DNA of 64,000 nt, taken from assembly GCF_009905545.1 (NCBI RefSeq), contig NZ_JAAALB010000010.1:124001-188000 (forward strand), given 5' to 3'. This DNA is from Cellulophaga sp. BC115SP. GTDB lineage: Bacteria; Bacteroidota; Bacteroidia; Cytophagales; Spirosomataceae. A program made the translations under genes and the position numbers. Of the stretch, positions 24,139 through 64,000 are shown piece by piece. Numbering within the stretch: the first letter of the stretch is position 1; each line of letters begins with the position of its first letter. The notes beneath the pieces were generated by a model. That model was not told the DNA's origin and searched no databases. It saw only the letters and a program-made list of their open reading frames with translations.

Positions 24139-24954
24139 ATGAGACCATTTACCTTTTATTGTTTATTAGCAGTATCATCAATGAGTTATGCACAATCAAA
24201 AGTTGATAGTGCATTATCAACAACCTATCGGACTTTTACTGGAAAAATAGGTTCAACGTCATTTAGAGATGACTTTATTAGCCCACTAAGGTATGATTTG
24301 TATGCTATTGGGCTAGAATTTCAACAACAACATCAAAAAAACCAAAAGTTATCCACATTGTTATCCACAATGTCTTTAGGAGTTCCTTCTCGCCCAAATA
24401 CCCTAAAAGTCGCTACAGGAGAACTCAATATTTACTTTGCCAAGCAGTATGATATGCTTCATTCACCTAATACTCATTTGTATTTAGGAGGGTTTACTGG
24501 GCTCAATATTGCTGCAAGATTTTCGGATATTTATAACCTTGGATACGGAAATAATGAGGTATCGGTAGATGCGGGCTTAAGAGCTGGAGTAGCCTTAAGT
24601 TATTGGAAATCAATGCGTATCTTTCATAGAAAAGTACAATTTCGAAACTTTTTTATGATGCCTTTAATCAGTGTACTAGGGCGTTCGGGATACGCACACG
24701 ACGCGTACTTCAAGGAAGAGTTATGGAAGTACTTGGGCGACTACATATACGTTGGGGGTATCCACAAATATTTCTTTTATACTAATCGAGCTACCTTGTA
24801 TTTTGGAGAAAAGGAATGTGCTAACGCCAAGCATCCTAAACGAAAATCTTCTTGGCGTGTTGGCATTGAATGGAGTTTTAGGCATTATACAGCTCCTTCG
24901 GAATTATCACTTGGAAATACGTCTTTGACAGTTGGTAAAGTAATTACATTTTAA
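24139..24954 (+). CDS. Putative outer-membrane beta-barrel protein, unknown family
   Basis: This is a 271-residue protein with a signal peptide (FYCLLAVSSMSYAQS). The rest shows alternating hydrophobic/polar strands with aromatic girdles and ends in a strand with terminal Phe (SLTVGKVITF), all consistent with an outer-membrane barrel. I do not recognise the family. Its stop is 6 bases before the S41 protease start, so the two are very likely one operon. Two perfect DnaA-box 9-mers (24349, 24361) fall inside the coding sequence. Confidence 0.6.
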   Translation: MRPFTFYCLLAVSSMSYAQSKVDSALSTTYRTFTGKIGSTSFRDDFISPLRYDLYAIGLEFQQQHQKNQKLSTLLSTMSLGVPSRPNTLKVATGELNIYFAKQYDMLHSPNTHLYLGGFTGLNIAARFSDIYNLGYGNNEVSVDAGLRAGVALSYWKSMRIFHRKVQFRNFFMMPLISVLGRSGYAHDAYFKEELWKYLGDYIYVGGIHKYFFYTNRATLYFGEKECANAKHPKRKSSWRVGIEWSFRHYTAPSELSLGNTSLTVGKVITF

Positions 24955-51137: not shown

Positions 51138-51188
51138 TCCACAGGAAGTTATCCACATTGTATAAATTTGTGGATAACTTCCTGTGGA
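51138..51188. repeat. 20-bp-arm palindrome carrying two inverted DnaA boxes
   Basis: TCCACAGGAAGTTATCCACA (51138-51157) is perfectly inverted at 51169-51188 around an 11-base A/T loop. Each arm ends in a perfect DnaA box (TTATCCACA at 51149, TGTGGATAA at 51169). It could double as a 3' hairpin for xth, although it lacks a T tail. A TAAATTTG -7-like element (51163-51170) falls in its loop, ahead of the DUF4175 gene. Confidence 0.75.
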
Positions 51189-51264
51189 ATTCGCGACTAT
51201 TTCCATTTCAGCATGATTATTGGACTCGTAATGGTCATATAATCCGCAAAATGATTTTATTACT

Positions 51265-54200
51265 ATGACAAATTCTCCTATTGCCGCACTTTCGTTACGC
51301 ATTGAAGAATATAAACGAAAGTTTTATCTAAACCGATTAGTCAAAGGATCTATCTTCTCTTTGGCTGTTATTTTGTCTGCCTATCTGGTATTCAACACAT
51401 TAGAATATTTTGGACACTTTGGCTCATTTTTCCGTGGAATACTTTTCTTCGGATTTATTCTAGCTTTTGGGTTATCCACATTCTTTTGGGTTATCAAGCC
51501 TTTATTGTTTCTTTATGGAAACAGAAAACCTCTAAGTGACGAAATAGCCGCTGACCAAATTGGCAAATTCTTTCCAGAAGTTTCGGATAAATTGCTCAAT
51601 ACACTCCAACTTTCAAAAGCGTTGAGCCATGAGCAAAATGAATTGTTAATGGCATCCATTGCTCAGAAATCTCAGCAATTGGCTATTATTCGCTTTGCCG
51701 ATGCCATTAAGATTGACCACAACAAAAGATACCTCAAATATATGGCAGTACCTGCTGTGGTAATTTTTGGGTTATTATTGATTTATCCTGCCTTCTTTTC
51801 AAAAAGTACTGAACGTATTGTCAACTTCAAAAACGAATATCAAGAAGAAGCTCCTTTTAGCTTTGAATTAGGAAACAAAAATCTAAAAGCTTTTAAAAAC
51901 GAAGACTTTACCGTAAATCTTGCTCTTCGTGGCAATACGATTCCTGATGCGGTTTATGTATTAGTTAATGATAGAAAAATGAAAATGGAGGCTATAGATA
52001 GTCGTCACTACTCATTTACGTTTTCTAAGTTGCAAGACAATACAGATTTTACGTTCGAGGCAGCTGGCTTTAAATCAGGTAACTATGAGATAGAAGTTGT
52101 TAATAAACCAACCCTTGGCTTCTTCGATGTAACACTACATTATCCTGCTTATTTGAACAAACCTGATGAGCAACTACAAAATATGGGTAATATCACAGTA
52201 CCCGAAGGCACACTTATCGACTGGAACTTTACTGTGACTGATACAGACTCTATCGTATTTTCTTTTGACGGAGATAAAAAGCGATATTTTGCGGAGAAGA
52301 AAATGCTAGGTGGGGGATATGACTTCAGATTGAAAGCAACTCGTTCGAGCGCTTATCAGGTATCGCTCAAAAACCAATATTCTAGTTCAAACCAAGGAAT
52401 TGATTTTAACCTAAATGTTATTCCTGACAAATATCCACAAATCAGTCTTGAACAATACAAAGATTCCACGCTTTATAACTATATGGTTTTAGGTGGAAGT
52501 ATAGCTGATGATTACGGATTAAGCCGTTTAGCTGTATTTTATAAAATTTTGCGCGATGGAAAGCCTAATAATGGCAATTATCGCAATTTCAATATTCCTG
52601 TAAACAAAACGCAATCAATCCAAGGATTTTATCAACAATGGGCTATGGATAGCCTAAAATTGAATCCTTCGGACAAAGTTGAGTACTATGTTCAAGTTTG
52701 GGATAATGATGGCGTAAATGGGCCAAAATCAACGCGTTCGCAATTATTGAACTATACCATTCCAAGTAAAAATGACATTAATAAAGAAATTGATAACTCT
52801 ATCGATAAAACTGAGGCTCAATTAGATAAAACGCTCGAAAAAGCTCAAAAGCTTCGCAAAGAATTAGCAGCGCTAGAAAATCGCTTGAAAAATAAGAAAG
52901 ACCTAGATTTTCAAGATAAAAAACTCATTGAAGAGATTGCTAAGAAAAAAGAAGATTTGATGAATGAAATCAAAAAGCTTCAAGAGCAAAATCAAAATCT
53001 AACAGATAAACAACAAAGATTCAATGAGCAAAAACCTGAAATGCAACAGAAAATGGAAGCATTGCAGAAAATGATGAATCAATTGATGGATCCTGAGACG
53101 CAAAAGCTTTACGAAGAATTGAAAAAAATGTTAGAGAAAAATCCAGAAGATAATCATATCAATGATCAGATGGATAAACTTCGAAACAAAGAGCGTAATA
53201 CTGAAAAGGAGCTAGAGCGTATGCAAAACCTTTTTAAGAAACTTCAGGTAGAGCAGAAACTCGACAAAGCTATCAAAGAACTTGAAAAGCAAGCTGAGAA
53301 ACAGGAAAATCTAGCGGAGAAAAACGAGGAGCTTAGCAAAAAGCCTCAAAGTCAAGATAAGTCGCAGCAAACAGAAGATTTGAAAAAAGAGCAAGAAAAG
53401 CTTAGTAAAGAGTTTGACGATGTTAAAAAAGACTTGAAAGATGCTGATAAGCTTAACAATGAAGTCAAAAATTCAGATCCGCTTGAATTAGATAAACAAC
53501 AGCAAGAGGATATTTCGGATGACCAGAAAGATGCTCAGCAGAAAATGGATAAGGGCGATAATAAGTCTGCCGCTGGTAAACAAAAGAAAGCAGCGAAGAA
53601 CATGAAGAATATGGCTCAAAAGCTTGCACAGATGAAACAACAAGCTGAGATGAAAGAGAATGAGGAAAACATAGAAACATTACGTGAAATCTTAGAAAAC
53701 CTTGTAAAACTCTCTTTTGACCAAGAACAGCTCATGAAAGACTTTAGAGGCATTATGCCTTCTGACCCTCGATTTGTGAAATTATCGCAAGAACAGATCA
53801 AGCTTCAGGATGATGCTAAAGTTATCGAAGATAGCTTATACACCCTTTCGAAACGAGTATTACAAATTGAAACATTTGTAACAAGAGAAATGGGCAATAT
53901 GAAAACTTATATGGGCGATGCCGTTAAACTCATTAAGGATCGTAAAATGGCAATGACTGCCTCGAAACAACAGTTTGCCATGACATCGATGAACAATTTA
54001 GCTCTTTTGTTATCTGACGTTCAAAAACAAATGCAACAAAACCAGCAAATGATGATGGCTGGTTCTGGAAGTGGGAAAGGTAAAAACAAAGGAAATCAAA
54101 AAGGAATGGGGCAGAGTCAGAAAGATTTGAATCAGAAAATGCAACAAACCCTGCAAAAAGGTTCTCAAAGCAAAGGTGGTATGTCTGAGGATTTAGCTAA

Positions 54201-56567: not shown

Positions 56568-57065
56568 ATGCACCTAAAAGAAACTCAAAAGCATATCAAA
56601 AAGAGATTATCAATTGGTTTAAGGCGATTTGTAAAAGGAGAATCAATAGATCTTAGCAACTACCAAAACAATGAAATATTGCGGTATATTATCCTAAGCA
56701 GAACTGATTTTAGAGAATATTTACAAAATCAGTTTATTGAAGGGATGAGTTGGGATAACTATTGTATAGATTGGGAAATCGATCATATAGTACCTACTAG
56801 TATGTTTAATATGCTTGATAAAGCTGAATTAAGCATGTGTTGGCATTTTTTAAACTTAATGCCGATGCTTAGTAAGGATAATGAGATAAAAGCAAATTCT
56901 ACATACTTTGCAAAAATTGAATTAGAAAAAAGGAGAAAATATTTACCAACCAATCCTATAATACAGTCATTGTACGATAAAATAATATCAGAAGATGATA
57001 TACATAGTAAATACCAATATGATTTAGATTTTTTAAAATTTTATAGTAAAATAAATTATATATAA
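56568..57065 (+). CDS. HNH-endonuclease-like protein, AT-rich, inserted between ybeY and mnmG
   Basis: This is a 165-residue protein. The nuclease core is readable as [13 protein letters not shown], then [20 protein letters not shown], giving the D-H...N...N pattern of HNH/beta-beta-alpha-metal nucleases. The N-terminal half is basic and helical ([20 protein letters not shown]), suited to DNA binding. Two sampled lines have roughly 27-30% G+C, clearly below mnmG, and codon use is extremely A/T-biased. The gene ends 1 base before mnmG. It resembles a free-standing homing- or phage-type HNH gene acquired recently. The target is unknown. Confidence 0.75.
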
Positions 57066-57066
57066 G

Positions 57067-58929
57067 ATGCACAGTAACTATGACATAATAGTAGTTGGAG
57101 CTGGACACGCAGGGTGCGAAGCTGCACACGCTGCCGCAACTATGGGTTCTAAAGTGCTACTAATTACCATGAATATGAATACGATTGCTCAAATGTCATG
57201 TAACCCAGCCATGGGTGGCGTGGCAAAAGGACAAATCGTAAGAGAGGTAGATGCACTTGGTGGTATGTCAGGAATTATTTCTGATAAAACCATGATTCAA
57301 TTTAGAATGTTGAATCGCTCAAAAGGTCCTGCTATGTGGTCGCCACGTTGCCAGTCAGACCGTATGCGATTCGCAGAAGAATGGAGATTAGCTCTTGAAA
57401 GAAACCTAAATATAGATTTTTGGCAAGAGATGGTTTCAGGATTAATAGTGGAAAATAACCAAGTAGTTGGTGTAAAGACACAACTTGGGATAGAATTCCG
57501 AGCAAAATCTGTCGTACTAACTAATGGAACATTCTTGAATGGATTAATTCATATTGGTGAAAAAAACTTTGGAGGTGGCAGAACAGCTGAAGGAAAAGCA
57601 ACAGGAATTACCGAGCAATTGGTGGAACTTGGTTTTGAAGCTGGTAGAATGAAAACAGGAACTCCTCCAAGAGTAGATGCGCGCAGTTTGGATTTTTCTA
57701 AAATGGAAGAACAAAAAGGAGACGAAAATCCTGCTAAATTTTCCTATTTAGACACAGAACCATTAAAAGAGCAAAGAAGCTGTTGGATTACCTATACTAA
57801 TCAAGAAGTTCATGATGTCTTAAAAACAGGTTTTGAAAAATCTCCTATGTTTGCTGGACGTATCAAAGGACTTGGTCCAAGATATTGCCCATCAGTAGAA
57901 GATAAGATTAACCGCTTTGCAGAAAAAGAACGTCATCAAATTTTTGTGGAACCAGAAGGTTGGAATACTGTGGAGGTTTATGTGAATGGTTTCTCAACTT
58001 CATTACCAGAAGACGTACAATATGCAGCCTTGAAAAAAATTCCAGGTTTTGAGAATGTAAGAATGTTCCGTCCAGGCTATGCGATTGAGTATGATTATTT
58101 CCCACCAACACAGCTAAAACAAACTTTAGAGACAAAATTGATTAGTAATTTATTCTTTGCTGGTCAAATCAATGGAACTACTGGTTATGAAGAAGCAGCG
58201 TGTCAAGGCTTGATGGCAGGTATCAATGCTCACCAAAAAGCACATGATAAAGAGGATTTTGTATTATCACGCTCAGAAGCATACATTGGTGTACTTATCG
58301 ATGACCTTATCAACAAAGGTACCGAAGAGCCGTACCGCATGTTTACGTCAAGAGCTGAATACAGAACTTTACTTCGTCAAGATAATGCAGATATTCGATT
58401 AACAGAAAGAGGATATAATATTGGATTAGCTTCAGATGAACGTTTACAAAAAGTTAAAGCAAAAAAAGAAACAACTGCTCAACTCGTAAATGAATTAAAA
58501 CATAAGAAAGTAAAACCAGCCGAGGTTAACGAAAAACTAGAAGCCATCGGAACAGCTCCGCTCAAAGAGGGTACTTCTTTGCTGAATCTCCTGAGACGTC
58601 CAAATGTAACGCTTGCAGAAATTAAAAACTTAAGTGAGGAGATTTCTGAATATTTAGATCAATATACAGAAGAGACATTGGAACAAGCTGAAATCAATAT
58701 CAAATACGAAAGCTATATTGAGAAGGAACAGCAAATGGTTGATAAAATGCAAAAACTAGAAGATTTGGCAATCCCATCAGATTTTGATTATGGCAGACTT
58801 TCAGCTATTTCGATTGAAGGTAGACAAAAGCTTAGTAAAATCAGACCAGCGACTATCGGACAAGCATCCAGAATTAGTGGTGTTTCTGCTTCAGATATTT
58901 CTGTACTCATGGTATTCATGGGAAGATAA
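57067..58929 (+). CDS. mnmG: tRNA uridine-5-carboxymethylaminomethyl modification enzyme MnmG (GidA)
   Basis: This is a 620-residue FAD protein with the dinucleotide motif [44 protein letters not shown], '[19 protein letters not shown]', '[20 protein letters not shown]', '[11 protein letters not shown]' and '[22 protein letters not shown]'. With MnmE it installs the cmnm5 group at U34 of several tRNAs. gidA is a classic neighbour of oriC in many bacteria, in line with the DnaA-box cluster 3 kb downstream. Confidence 0.99.
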
Positions 58930-59200: not shown

Positions 59201-60091
59201 ATGCAAGAATTACTAGAGAAGTGTCCAGTTTGTCAGCATACCCAAACCCAAAAATATATTACCTGCGAGGACTTCACTGTAAGTCATGAAAAATTTGATA
59301 TTGTATCTTGTCAAAAATGCGGCTTCAAATTTACCAATCCAAGACCAACAGCCAACACTATCGGGAAATACTATCAGTCCGAAAACTACATTTCGCATAG
59401 CAACACCTCGAAAGGAATCATTTCAAAAATCTACCACCAAGTAAGAAAAATAACGCTTCAGCAAAAAGTAGATTTAATCAATAAACTCAACGGAGGAAAA
59501 CAAGGTAGCTTACTCGATATTGGTTGTGGAACAGGAATGTTTTTGAACGCTGCCAAAACAAATGGATGGAAAGTCTCAGGGGTAGAGCCAAGCGATGGCG
59601 CTCGAACAATGGCCGAAGAAATTAATCAGATTTCTATTCCTTCAGAAATTCTTGGTTCATATCAATACCAACAATTTGATATTATTACGATGTGGCACGT
59701 ACTTGAGCATGTTCACTTACTAAACGAAACGGTGGAGTTCCTAAAGGAAAAATCCACCCAAAAAGGAAAGGTAATTATTGCAGTTCCGAACCATGAATCT
59801 CAAGATGCTCAAATTTATCAAGAGCACTGGGCTGCCTACGATGTACCAAGACACTTGTATCATTTTTCGAGAAATAGCATTCAGCAACTTTTCGAAAATC
59901 ACGGATTCAGATTGAAAGAGCACTTACCCATGAAATTTGATTCTTTCTATGTAAGTATGCTCTCCACAAAATACCAACAAGGAAATACTAACTATGTGGA
60001 ATCGTTTTTAAGCGGACTCAAATCAAATAGGGTAGGAGCGAAGCAGAACAATAATTACTCAAGCATCATCTATATCTTCGAGAAAAAGTAG
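59201..60091 (+). CDS. Class I SAM-dependent methyltransferase with N-terminal zinc ribbon
   Basis: This is a 296-residue protein. The N-terminus has two Cys pairs (CPVC at ~9-12, CQKCGFKFTNPRP at ~36) forming a zinc ribbon as in Methyltransf_13/C-methyltransferase relatives. The SAM-binding motif I is LLDIGCGTGMFLNAAKTNGW, followed by 'VSGVEPSDGAR', 'FDIITMWHVLEHVHLLNETV' and 'ALYDVPRHLYHFSRNSIQQL'-like YDVPRHLYHFS. The substrate is unknown; relatives act on glycans or lipids. TATATTTG (59168-59175) is a -7 candidate. Confidence 0.9.
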   Translation: MQELLEKCPVCQHTQTQKYITCEDFTVSHEKFDIVSCQKCGFKFTNPRPTANTIGKYYQSENYISHSNTSKGIISKIYHQVRKITLQQKVDLINKLNGGKQGSLLDIGCGTGMFLNAAKTNGWKVSGVEPSDGARTMAEEINQISIPSEILGSYQYQQFDIITMWHVLEHVHLLNETVEFLKEKSTQKGKVIIAVPNHESQDAQIYQEHWAAYDVPRHLYHFSRNSIQQLFENHGFRLKEHLPMKFDSFYVSMLSTKYQQGNTNYVESFLSGLKSNRVGAKQNNNYSSIIYIFEKK

Positions 60092-60298: not shown

Positions 60299-61948
60299 AT
60301 GAAAGTAATTAACATAGTCTTGATAACTTTTCTAGGATTTCTATTCATAGAGGCGTTATTTAGTTGTGCGCAGGTTGTAGCACCCACAGGAGGTAAAAAA
60401 GACACCCTCGCACCAAAATTAGTAATGAGTATCCCAGCTAATCAGTCCAAAAACTATAAAGGAAAAAGTATCGAGATTCAGTTTGATGAGTATATCAATG
60501 TGGATAACCTTCAACAACAGCTATTAATAACGCCAAGTACGGAGCCTTTTTTTACTACTAAAACAATGCCCAGAGGTGTTCGTATTACTTTTGAAGATGC
60601 CTTTCAGCCAAATACAACCTATAGTTTCAATTTTAGAGAGGCTATTAAGGACATAACTGAAAGAAACCCAGCCAAAAACGTAAGAATTGTATTTAGTACT
60701 GGCGGGGTGATTGACTCACTATCTATAGAAGGAAATGTCGAAGATATTATCGAGAATAAAGGGCTGTTAGACGCTACCGTCGGAGTGTACAGATATTCGG
60801 ATACACTAAAAATCAATAAGATGAAGCCTTACTATTTTACAAAAACAGATAGTACAGGAAATTTCAGAATTGAGAACGTAGCGGCAGGGAAGTACAGAAT
60901 TTATGCTATTACCGATGTTAACAGTAATCTTCTATATGATGAAACAAAGGAAAAAATTGGCTTTATAACTGATACACTGCAACTTAATAAAAGCGTCAGT
61001 GGACTAAAAATTAAGGTAGCCAAGGCAGATAACTCTCCCGTAAAGGTGAGTAAAACACGCACAACCACCAATTATTACTATGTGGAGTTGAACAAGGGTG
61101 TCAAAAAAGTCGATATCAAATTCGAAAATCCTCAAGATAGTATTCCTTATCAACTTGTGGAAAAGAATATGGTACGTGTGTATAACTTGAAGAAAGTAAG
61201 TCAAGATACTATCAAGATCGCTATGACCGTTGTGGATTCACTGGATAGGAAGTTTGATTTTAAGCAGAAAATTAAGTTCAAGGCAAAAGGTAAAAAAGAA
61301 GATTCATTTGTAGAGGAGTTCAGATATGAGGTAAGTCCACAGAATAATCAACAAGTTGATTTAAAAGAAGTTGGTTATACCATCAAATTCAGTAAACCAA
61401 TAGGAACCTTCGATTGGAAAAAAATTAAAATACTGAATGATACCCTCAAAAAGGTAGATATTCTTGAAAAGCATTTTTCATGGAATGTGGATAAAACAGA
61501 AGTATTGTTGAAAATCCCTGAAGCGCCAAAACCAAAGGAGTTTTTGTCCCTTGAGATTCCCGTAAATACATTTCAGTCGATAGAAGGTGATACCAACAAG
61601 ATTGTCAAGCAGCTTAATCCGCTCCGAGATCCAGAAAATTATGGTTTAATAGAAGGACAAATCAACAATCCACAAGGAAAACAGTGTATTGTACAAGTAT
61701 TAAACGATAAAAAAGAAGTTGTAAAAGAACTTATCCACACTAAAACGGGGAAATACACATTCGATTTCTTGACACCAGGGGTATATCGGGTACGATTAAT
61801 TGTGGATACAAACAAAAATGGACGCTGGGATGCCGCAATTGTGGATAAAAACACCCCCGCGGAAGAAATTTTGCACATCAAAGACAAGATTAAGCTCAAA
61901 CAGAACTTCGAACTATCAGGTTTTGACTTCAAAATTGAGGATAAATAG
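60299..61948 (+). CDS. Ig-like (Big_5) domain lipoprotein
   Basis: This is a 549-residue protein with a lipoprotein signal (LFIEALFSC, Cys ~23). It begins with the Big_5-type Ig-like domain (APTGGKKDTLAPKLVMSIPANQ, 'IEIQFDEYINVD', 'TTYSFNFREAIKDITERN'). A transthyretin-like/CarboxypepD-like segment follows ('GNFRIENVAAGKYRIYAITDVNSN'). A C-terminal repeat of the same kind ends it ('GVYRVRLIVDTNKNGRWD'). It is a conserved Bacteroidota envelope protein of unknown function. Three DnaA-box sequences, two perfect and one 8/9, lie within its last ~220 coding bases. Confidence 0.87.
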   Translation: MKVINIVLITFLGFLFIEALFSCAQVVAPTGGKKDTLAPKLVMSIPANQSKNYKGKSIEIQFDEYINVDNLQQQLLITPSTEPFFTTKTMPRGVRITFEDAFQPNTTYSFNFREAIKDITERNPAKNVRIVFSTGGVIDSLSIEGNVEDIIENKGLLDATVGVYRYSDTLKINKMKPYYFTKTDSTGNFRIENVAAGKYRIYAITDVNSNLLYDETKEKIGFITDTLQLNKSVSGLKIKVAKADNSPVKVSKTRTTTNYYYVELNKGVKKVDIKFENPQDSIPYQLVEKNMVRVYNLKKVSQDTIKIAMTVVDSLDRKFDFKQKIKFKAKGKKEDSFVEEFRYEVSPQNNQQVDLKEVGYTIKFSKPIGTFDWKKIKILNDTLKKVDILEKHFSWNVDKTEVLLKIPEAPKPKEFLSLEIPVNTFQSIEGDTNKIVKQLNPLRDPENYGLIEGQINNPQGKQCIVQVLNDKKEVVKELIHTKTGKYTFDFLTPGVYRVRLIVDTNKNGRWDAAIVDKNTPAEEILHIKDKIKLKQNFELSGFDFKIEDK

Positions 61949-62400
61949 GCTAATTGTGGATAAGTGCCATTTTTCGGTGTAAGACTGTATAAATCTTGTG
62001 GATAAACACCCCTATTTTGGGTACAAAAATTGTGGAAAGAATTGAAGCGTTTGTGGAAAGAAAATGAGCCCAAATATCGAAGTGTATAACTTGATAAGTT
62101 ATACCACAGAAAAACACCATTTATCCCCCAACAAACACACCGTTGAAAAAGTCCTATTTATCCACACAAGTAACCTGTGGATAAGTGCCATTTTTTGTTA
62201 ATTAGCTGATAAACAATATTTTAATTGTATATAAATTAAATATTAAGTGTGTATAAAATTAAAGTTATTCACATCACAACGTGAAAATATTTTTTCACAA
62301 AAGTATTCCACAAATCCACAGTATAATAAGCATAATAGATATTCTTTCTTTTTAAAAAATTAAAAAAATAAATACTATATATATTATGTTGTGTTGAAAA
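61731..62400. other. oriC: Candidate chromosomal replication origin (DnaA-box cluster plus AT-rich stretch)
   Basis: Perfect 9-mer DnaA boxes are at 61731 (+), 61840 (-), 61955 (-), 61997 (-), 62158 (+) and 62176 (-). One-mismatch boxes are at 61801 (-), 62250 (-) and 62267 (+), and weaker ones at 62031, 62052, 62121, 62298 and 62307. The boxes are followed by an extremely A/T-rich stretch (62200-62270 and 62330-62400) suited to duplex unwinding. Most of it lies in a 486-base intergenic region without ORFs (61949-62434). mnmG and a parS-like site are within 6 kb. Opposed boxes at 62158/62176 are 18 bases apart. Confidence 0.75.
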
Positions 62401-62434
62401 CTGAAATGAATGTCAAATCTTTAACGCCTAAAAT

Positions 62435-64000
62435 ATGAAAAGTGAAGTGTGTATGTTAAATCGTCCTTTTTTCAAATTTATGTGCTTTGCCTTTTTTCTA
62501 ATCACGGGAATATATCAGGCAAGTGGACAAGATGTGGAATTGGGGATTGAATATGTGAAAGCTGGAGAATATGAAAAAGCAAAAAGCATTTTTCAGAAAT
62601 TGGCTAAAAATAAAGACATCGCTGGGAGTATTCATAAACCCTATCTTCAGACATTGTACAAATTGAAAGAAGTGGATGAAGCTGAAAAGTTTTTGAAAAA
62701 GCAAATCAAGTGGTCTGATGGAAATCCGTTTTATATACTCGATTATGCACATTTGTTGGAGGAACAGAAGAAAAAAGAGGAAGCAGATAAACTTTATAAT
62801 CAAATACTCGAAAAATGTAAAGTTACAGATGAGTTAACACTCAAAATGGTAAATGAATTGAGTACTTATCAACAGTATGATTGGGCTATTAACTTGATTG
62901 AGAAAAACAGGCTTTATTTTAAGGATATCAGCAAGTTTCCTCTTCAGGTAGGTAGATTGTACAAACTGGCTGGAAAACCTCAAGAAATGCTTGAGGAATA
63001 CCTAAATTTTGGACGTGATATAGAAAACCGAGAAATCCTTCAAGGAATGCTCCAAGATGAGCTTAGAGACGAAAACGATCAAGCGCTTTTAGAAAAGGTT
63101 TTGTATGCCAAAGTTCAGAAATTTCCAGAAGATCCCTATTTCAGCGAAATGTTGATTTGGCATCTCACTCAAAAGAAGGAATTCTTCAAAGCATTCGTCC
63201 AAGCACGGGCCTTAGACAAGCGATATAAGCGTGAAGGTGCCCAAGTAGCCGACTTAGGGTTTGTAGCGTATCAGAACAAAGATTTCAGTAGTGCAGGTAA
63301 GGTTTTTGAATATTTGGTCAAAGAGTATCCAAAGCAGCAAAATTATCCACTTTGGAGAAGAGTGTTGATAAACTCAAAAGAAGAGGTCATCAAAAACACT
63401 TACCCCGTGAATCAAAGTGATATTAGAATCTTGATTCAGGAATATACCAAACTTTTAAACGAATTGGGAATAAACCAAAGAACTCTTGAGGCGTTGCGAA
63501 GTAAAGGTCTTTTATATGGTTTTTACCTAAACGAAAAAGATACTGCCATAGCTGTGTTGGAAAGTGCTATAAAGTTATCCACAGGCAATAGGGAGTTTGT
63601 GGATAAGTGTAAATTAGACCTTGGTGATATTTATGTACTAAAGTCCGAACCATGGGAAGCTACCCTACTTTATTCACAAGTAGAAAAATCTGAAAAAGAT
63701 AGCCCAATGGGATACGAAGCCAAACTTCGAAATGCTAAATTGTCCTATTACAAAGGCGATTTTGAACTGGCAAAGGATGTGTTGGATATTCTCAAACAGG
63801 CTACCACTCGTGAAATTGCCAACGATGCCATGAATTTAAGCCTTCTTATTCAAGATAATACGGGTATTGATACTACCGACCAAGCTTTAAAAGACTATGC
63901 CAATGTAGAATTAATGCTTTTTCAACATAGAAATGAAGAAGCTATGGCTGAAATGAAAAGTATGGTGACCAAGCACAAAGGACATCCACTCGAAGACGAA
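62435..64000 (+). CDS. Secreted tetratricopeptide-repeat protein, partial (C-terminus outside window)
   Basis: The frame is open from the ATG at 62435 to the window end: 522 codons, no stop. A second ATG at 62453 (MLNRPFFKFMCFAFFLITG) gives a cleaner signal peptide ending near YQASGQ. The mature part shows TPR-type helix pairs (GIEYVKAGEYEKAKSIFQKLAK, 'LYKLKEVDEAEKFLKKQIK', 'FVAYQNKDFSSAGKVFEYLVKEYP', 'RNAKLSYYKGDFELAKDVLDIL'). The function is probably protein-protein interaction in the periplasm or outer membrane. An opposed pair of perfect DnaA boxes (63575, 63598) lies within the gene. Confidence 0.85.
   Translation, partial: MKSEVCMLNRPFFKFMCFAFFLITGIYQASGQDVELGIEYVKAGEYEKAKSIFQKLAKNKDIAGSIHKPYLQTLYKLKEVDEAEKFLKKQIKWSDGNPFYILDYAHLLEEQKKKEEADKLYNQILEKCKVTDELTLKMVNELSTYQQYDWAINLIEKNRLYFKDISKFPLQVGRLYKLAGKPQEMLEEYLNFGRDIENREILQGMLQDELRDENDQALLEKVLYAKVQKFPEDPYFSEMLIWHLTQKKEFFKAFVQARALDKRYKREGAQVADLGFVAYQNKDFSSAGKVFEYLVKEYPKQQNYPLWRRVLINSKEEVIKNTYPVNQSDIRILIQEYTKLLNELGINQRTLEALRSKGLLYGFYLNEKDTAIAVLESAIKLSTGNREFVDKCKLDLGDIYVLKSEPWEATLLYSQVEKSEKDSPMGYEAKLRNAKLSYYKGDFELAKDVLDILKQATTREIANDAMNLSLLIQDNTGIDTTDQALKDYANVELMLFQHRNEEAMAEMKSMVTKHKGHPLEDE
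63575..63606. other. Opposed pair of perfect DnaA boxes inside the TPR gene
   Basis: TTATCCACA at 63575-63583 and TGTGGATAA at 63598-63606 are convergent, 14 bases apart, about 1.4 kb from the main cluster. Confidence 0.7.

Follow-up and report, generated by a model that had tools for sequence, protein, structure and literature searches.

Where chromosome replication begins is the question raised by a 64,000-base stretch (G000:C2:124001-188000, hereafter the window) of a 7.08 Mb genome assembled in 206 contigs. The host is taken as Flectobacillus, since the closest named records of a lipoprotein encoded in the window, those of Flectobacillus sp. BAB-3569 and F. longus, are 96% identical to it. 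The first-pass annotation had proposed a candidate oriC near the right end of the window, where a dense group of DnaA boxes and A/T-rich DNA lie downstream of mnmG and an Ig-like lipoprotein gene. From left to right, the order is mnmG, a methyltransferase gene, the Ig-like (Big_5) lipoprotein gene, a gap of 486 bases and a gene for a TPR protein:

57067..58929, + strand: mnmG (gidA), from the ORF list and family matches
59201..60091, + strand: methyltransferase gene, from the ORF list and a family match
60299..61948, + strand: Ig-like (Big_5) lipoprotein gene, from the ORF list and a family match
61949..62434 (486 bases), no strand: lipoprotein-TPR gap, the proposed oriC proper, from ORF positions, box enrichment and conservation
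62435..64000, + strand: TPR protein gene (continues past the window end, 611 aa in total), which accompanies the box cluster

Both mnmG and the lipoprotein gene lie to the left of the cluster, as had been described, but mnmG is 3 kb from the gap with two genes intervening, and of all landmarks the TPR gene is the closest. The linkage of mnmG to the gap is kept in most of the relatives examined. The gap, which had been called free of ORFs, holds no gene-like ORF, although some mechanical ORFs run into it, such as 61639-62073 on the - strand. A search of residues 1-521 of the 611 of the TPR protein against NCBIfam gave no match above the cut-off, and a search against Rfam gave two tRNAs and nothing else. 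The dnaA gene is not beside the cluster in this genome: it lies on a different contig (G000:C1:149667-150152), which carries three exact boxes only, and it is also far from the gap in the relatives G002, G024, G006 and G028. The position of dnaA and the transcription of the left-hand genes towards the cluster had been listed as evidence against an origin. Both observations hold in the relatives as well, and they are compatible with an origin.

The count of exact TTATCCACA boxes in the window is 17 (fifteen in the earlier count), against 0.70 expected and a maximum of 3 in 100 dinucleotide shuffles. When one mismatch was allowed, 61 boxes were found against 19.5 expected. Six of the exact boxes, on both strands, fall within the 454 bases of 61731-62184, and the interval from 61.7 to 63.6 kb holds eight, as first reported. 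Two of the six lie within the lipoprotein ORF and four in the gap. The boxes of this region are as follows:

61731..61739, + strand: exact DnaA box within the lipoprotein ORF (pattern match)
61840..61848, - strand: exact DnaA box within the lipoprotein ORF (pattern match)
61955..61963, - strand: exact DnaA box, invariant across five genus genomes (pattern match and alignment)
61997..62005, - strand: exact DnaA box, invariant across five genus genomes (pattern match and alignment)
62158..62166, + strand: exact DnaA box, left half of a convergent pair, invariant across five genus genomes (pattern match and alignment)
62176..62184, - strand: exact DnaA box, right half of the convergent pair, invariant across five genus genomes (pattern match and alignment)
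62248..62256, - strand, and 62265..62273, + strand: two one-mismatch boxes (pattern match)
63575..63583, + strand, and 63598..63606, - strand: two exact boxes within the TPR gene (pattern match)

Genome-wide, 143 exact boxes were found against 70 for a reversed-pattern control, and among all 143 the group at 61731-62184 is, by eye, the densest, with six boxes per 500 bases occurring nowhere else. The runner-up, at G000:C67:104190-104635 (locus L171), has four exact boxes within 446 bases; they lie inside or next to ORFs presumably for a glycosyltransferase and an epimerase. Smaller groups in the window are found at 51149-51480 (three exact boxes in 332 bases) and at 24349-24369 (two in 21 bases, within an ORF). 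For the three minor box clusters of this genome, the examination covered their ORFs only. The contig that holds the window, 196 kb long, carries 28 of the 143 boxes, an excess that extends far past the cluster and perhaps represents accessory DnaA sites. The pair within the TPR gene (63575-63606), which is retained in four of the five genus genomes, G001 having lost one box, is possibly accessory as well.

Comparison with related genomes, which had been recommended as a check, showed that the boxes are conserved. Within the genus (the own genome and G001-G004), the four gap boxes are identical in position, orientation and sequence: all 36 of their columns are invariant, against 204 of the remaining 450 columns of the gap. 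Further away, the order mnmG-(methyltransferase)-lipoprotein-gap-TPR is retained in most of 20 relatives, including G028 and G032 from other families; the exceptions are G017, where the contig ends, G007 and G026. Leaving out G017 and the latter two, in which mnmG or TPR had no match in the stretch, gave a set of 18 gaps with hand-set ends (the own gap and those of 17 of the 20 relatives). All 18 are rich in boxes: allowing up to one mismatch, they contain 168 in total where 4.0 would be expected, and the count of any gap was reached in none of 60 shuffles.

The three omitted relatives are part of a wider set of 30 loci, whose same-genus members are not independent; another eight genomes have a lipoprotein match and lie outside this set. 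In the 30 loci, 600 bases past the lipoprotein match (518 in one locus) were scored. A box cluster was found downstream of the lipoprotein gene in 24 of the 30 loci, the own one included (no shuffle of 100 reached the count), and the total was 210 boxes against 7.1 expected; the 600 bases before the gene hold 28, of which 22 are in the genus. The loci that lack the cluster at this place are G005, G007, G021, G025, G027 and G037. In four of them (G005, G007, G021 and G037) the TPR gene is located elsewhere and has 6 to 12 boxes in its upstream 600 bases, again matched in none of 100 shuffles; the methyltransferase gene still adjoins the relocated TPR gene in G005, G007 and G021. In G025 and G027 a cluster was found neither after the lipoprotein gene nor upstream of the TPR gene. 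Counting both places, 28 of the 30 loci have the cluster, which makes the TPR gene a better landmark than the lipoprotein gene. Nine more distant loci with lipoprotein relatives (L142-L150) have no cluster, none of their 500-base stretches holding more than three one-mismatch boxes. A core pattern with fixed spacers was also run over 118 genomes of the order and rejected: it matched two of the 118 and missed the own genome, so this figure is uninformative on conservation. Its match in G005 gave a useful lead, and it also led to G066 (locus L174), a genome of another family that lies outside the counts above and has a box-rich gap between its TPR and lipoprotein genes.

An A/T-rich region might be suspected of producing such boxes by chance or base composition. 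This explanation can practically be dismissed, as no shuffle attains the observed counts in the window, in the 18 gaps or in the 24 of 30 loci, and the boxes are conserved.

The A/T-richness noticed at first sight was confirmed: G+C falls to 18% in 62200-62299 and in 62300-62399, whereas the other 2-kb windows of the stretch range from 33% to 41%. Next to the strong boxes, the following elements can be distinguished:

62304..62320, + strand: weak tandem box pair with two mismatches each (by eye) and an 8-base period, kept in relatives
62322..62338, + strand: TAATA-containing element (TATTA/TTATT on the other strand)
62339..62400, no strand: A/T-rich DNA, proposed unwinding element (18% G+C in 62300-62399; melting predicted)

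In columns 62309-62368, 47 of 60 are invariant in the genus, as counted from the alignment. Overlapping boxes of the form CAC-A-(A/T)ATC(C/T)ACAG lie beside the A/T-rich tract in 13 of the 18 gaps and in G005. The convergent box pair was present in one of four relatives searched and missing from G006, G024 and G028. The DNA after the tandem pair was analysed in 12 cores out of the 16 with an anchor. The near copies G001 and G003 were set aside, as were G009 and G015, whose anchor matched at a different place; G018 and G023 have no core anchor. With shuffles that preserve base composition only, the 30 bases after the pair contain TAATA 17 times against 3.3 expected and TA(A/G) 51 times against 28.6, counts that none of 2000 shuffles reached.

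This arrangement invites comparison with the basal unwinding system of Bacillus subtilis, described as tandem DnaA boxes that directly adjoin the DNA to be melted, together with trios of the form 3'-NAN-5' (PMC8287927, in the parts available). Here, too, tandem boxes adjoin the proposed melting DNA. Unlike those of B. subtilis, they overlap by one base, and trios of the required polarity are not enriched: over the 12 cores the longest runs sum to 33, against 35.3 in shuffles, and runs of at least three, seen in 6 of the 12 cores, are equally frequent in shuffles. The longest run in the own core is two, whereas the system calls for at least three trios within 16 bases, leading away from the boxes. 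The motif TTATT is given as a single-strand contact of DnaA in Escherichia coli and as present in Thermotoga maritima in the available portion of PMC10316083. In 8 of the 12 cores (by eye) it occurs on the strand bearing the boxes 3', which may be regarded as a resemblance only; unlike in T. maritima, a triple repeat of TAG was seen in none of these cores.

The GC skew, whose minimum had been named as a check, was followed in relatives. In G002, a contig of 5.43 Mb, twenty samples of 20 kb gave negative raw skew in seven of eight between 2.0 and 3.9 Mb and positive skew in 11 of 12 elsewhere. The raw cumulative minimum over a continuous 420 kb lies at 3,756,166, the box cluster at 3,740,433-3,740,878, and the switch corrected by third codon positions and a gene-direction term at 3,729,759-3,734,471, a rough interval. 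For G024 the positions are 4,139,895 (raw minimum), 4,169,623 (corrected switch) and about 4,160,150 (gap), with samples of -0.124 before and +0.077 after the gap. In both relatives the corrected switch is no more than about 11 kb from the gap. The dnaA gene stands at the contig start in both, and the sign of the raw skew does not change across it (+0.100 and +0.014 on its two sides in G002; -0.127 and -0.036 in G024). The third-position skew of G002 is +0.089 and -0.009 on either side of dnaA, and its third-position samples switch sign back and forth from 3.9 to 4.7 Mb. The check did not give the same answer everywhere: no clear switch appeared in 20 sampled stretches of G028, and in 15 of G007 the outcome was ambiguous, with one sign change near the TPR gene and another, in the third-position skew, near the lipoprotein gene. 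On the own contig, one of 206 in a fragmented assembly and continuing for 10 kb on the right-hand side of the gap, the raw minimum lies 28 kb to the left of the gap and the orientation-corrected changepoint falls in an uninformatively wide interval of 7-177 kb. The gap of G024 has no exact box, and two exact boxes occur 6.5 kb beyond. The skew of this one-contig relative (G024:C1) also turns from negative to positive a second time, at 1.2-1.5 Mb, perhaps through an inversion.

These positions bear on the idea that the origin is nearby, some 10-30 kb away and outside the gap. The corrected switches lie on the TPR side, at 6-11 kb in G002 and about 9 kb in G024, and the raw minima 15-28 kb to the mnmG side. 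That the two methods of locating the switch land on opposite sides of the gap is, however, what noise would produce, and those stretches of the own contig and of G002 contain no equally dense cluster, which makes a displaced origin very improbable. Hardly more credible is that replication starts elsewhere and that the cluster serves as a datA-like site of DnaA titration or regulation, or as a promoter through which DnaA controls the TPR gene. The cluster does accompany the TPR gene and sits upstream of it, boxes occur within the neighbouring genes too and the excess spans the contig; yet the skew switches near the cluster in two relatives, the cluster is (by eye) the densest in the genome, and the conserved tandem pair adjoins A/T-rich DNA. 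A regulatory role may exist in addition to that of origin.

Among the properties that mark an oriC, a box cluster above chance, adjoining A/T-rich DNA and conservation in relatives were found here, and a nearby GC-skew switch in two of the four relatives sampled. It is highly probable that the chromosomal oriC is the gap 61949-62434, together with boxes extending into the lipoprotein gene, and the reading of the first-pass annotation can be retained. It is based directly on the clustering and conservation of the boxes, the A/T-richness and the nearby skew switch in two relatives, and the origins predicted beside mnmG in other Bacteroidota agree with it. From this we infer how DnaA would bind and assemble, where the DNA would melt and how helicase would be loaded. 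DnaA would first occupy the strong boxes of 61731-62184 and next spread to the weak tandem pair at 62304-62320, and the oligomer would melt the A/T-rich stretch around 62322-62400 and retain one single strand. Helicase and its loader would come next (a loader gene, dciA, is reported in Bacteroidetes in the accessible part of PMC5109545), and two forks would depart. The left-hand genes, which run towards the origin, would face the fork head-on, in the relatives alike. More tentative, and in our view rather doubtful, is the proposal that the origins of the host's family, along with those of some families close to it, have a distinct opening module in common. It would consist of two DnaA boxes that overlap at an 8-base period, followed by a TAATA/TTATT element and then by A/T-rich DNA up towards the TPR start, without Bacillus-type trios; the TPR gene would have stayed with the origin, and the lipoprotein gene would have departed in some lineages.

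As a type of site, this origin is ordinary. For two Flavobacteriaceae, Mariniflexile litorale (PMC11278836) and Algorimicrobium (PMC12843772), published predictions already put the origin near mnmG and at a distance from dnaA, according to the available text on the basis of Ori-Finder and GC skew; in the former report the text has oriC by mnmG and a figure legend marks mnmG as ter. The present locus is likewise from the Bacteroidota, near mnmG and away from dnaA, but two genes stand between mnmG and the gap, and the TPR gene follows. In Melioribacter roseus, as far as the accessible part of PMC3534657 describes it, the origin lies between dnaA and dnaN; the two sites share a box cluster in an intergenic gap, and differ in that dnaA is here on another contig and far from the gap in the four relatives named above. 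What seems new, and appears undescribed in the partial literature covered, is the location next to the TPR gene in the host's family and some others. No experimental oriC map for the host's family was found in that partial literature, and DoriC may already hold a prediction. For Cytophaga hutchinsonii, a member of the same order as the host, a replicating oriC is cited: replicative plasmids built on it are attributed to Xu et al. 2012 in the available text of PMC5891637. A gene-anchored address of oriC for Flectobacillus and many relatives, some of whose assemblies begin at dnaA instead (G002 and G024), would be usable for estimating growth from read depth, for replicating plasmids and for tests of how DnaA opens origins in Bacteroidota.

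At the far side of this neighbourhood, a small protein encoded just 5' of mnmG (56568-57065) matches the C-terminal domain of GmrSD with 22.8 bits, against a Pfam cut-off of 23.
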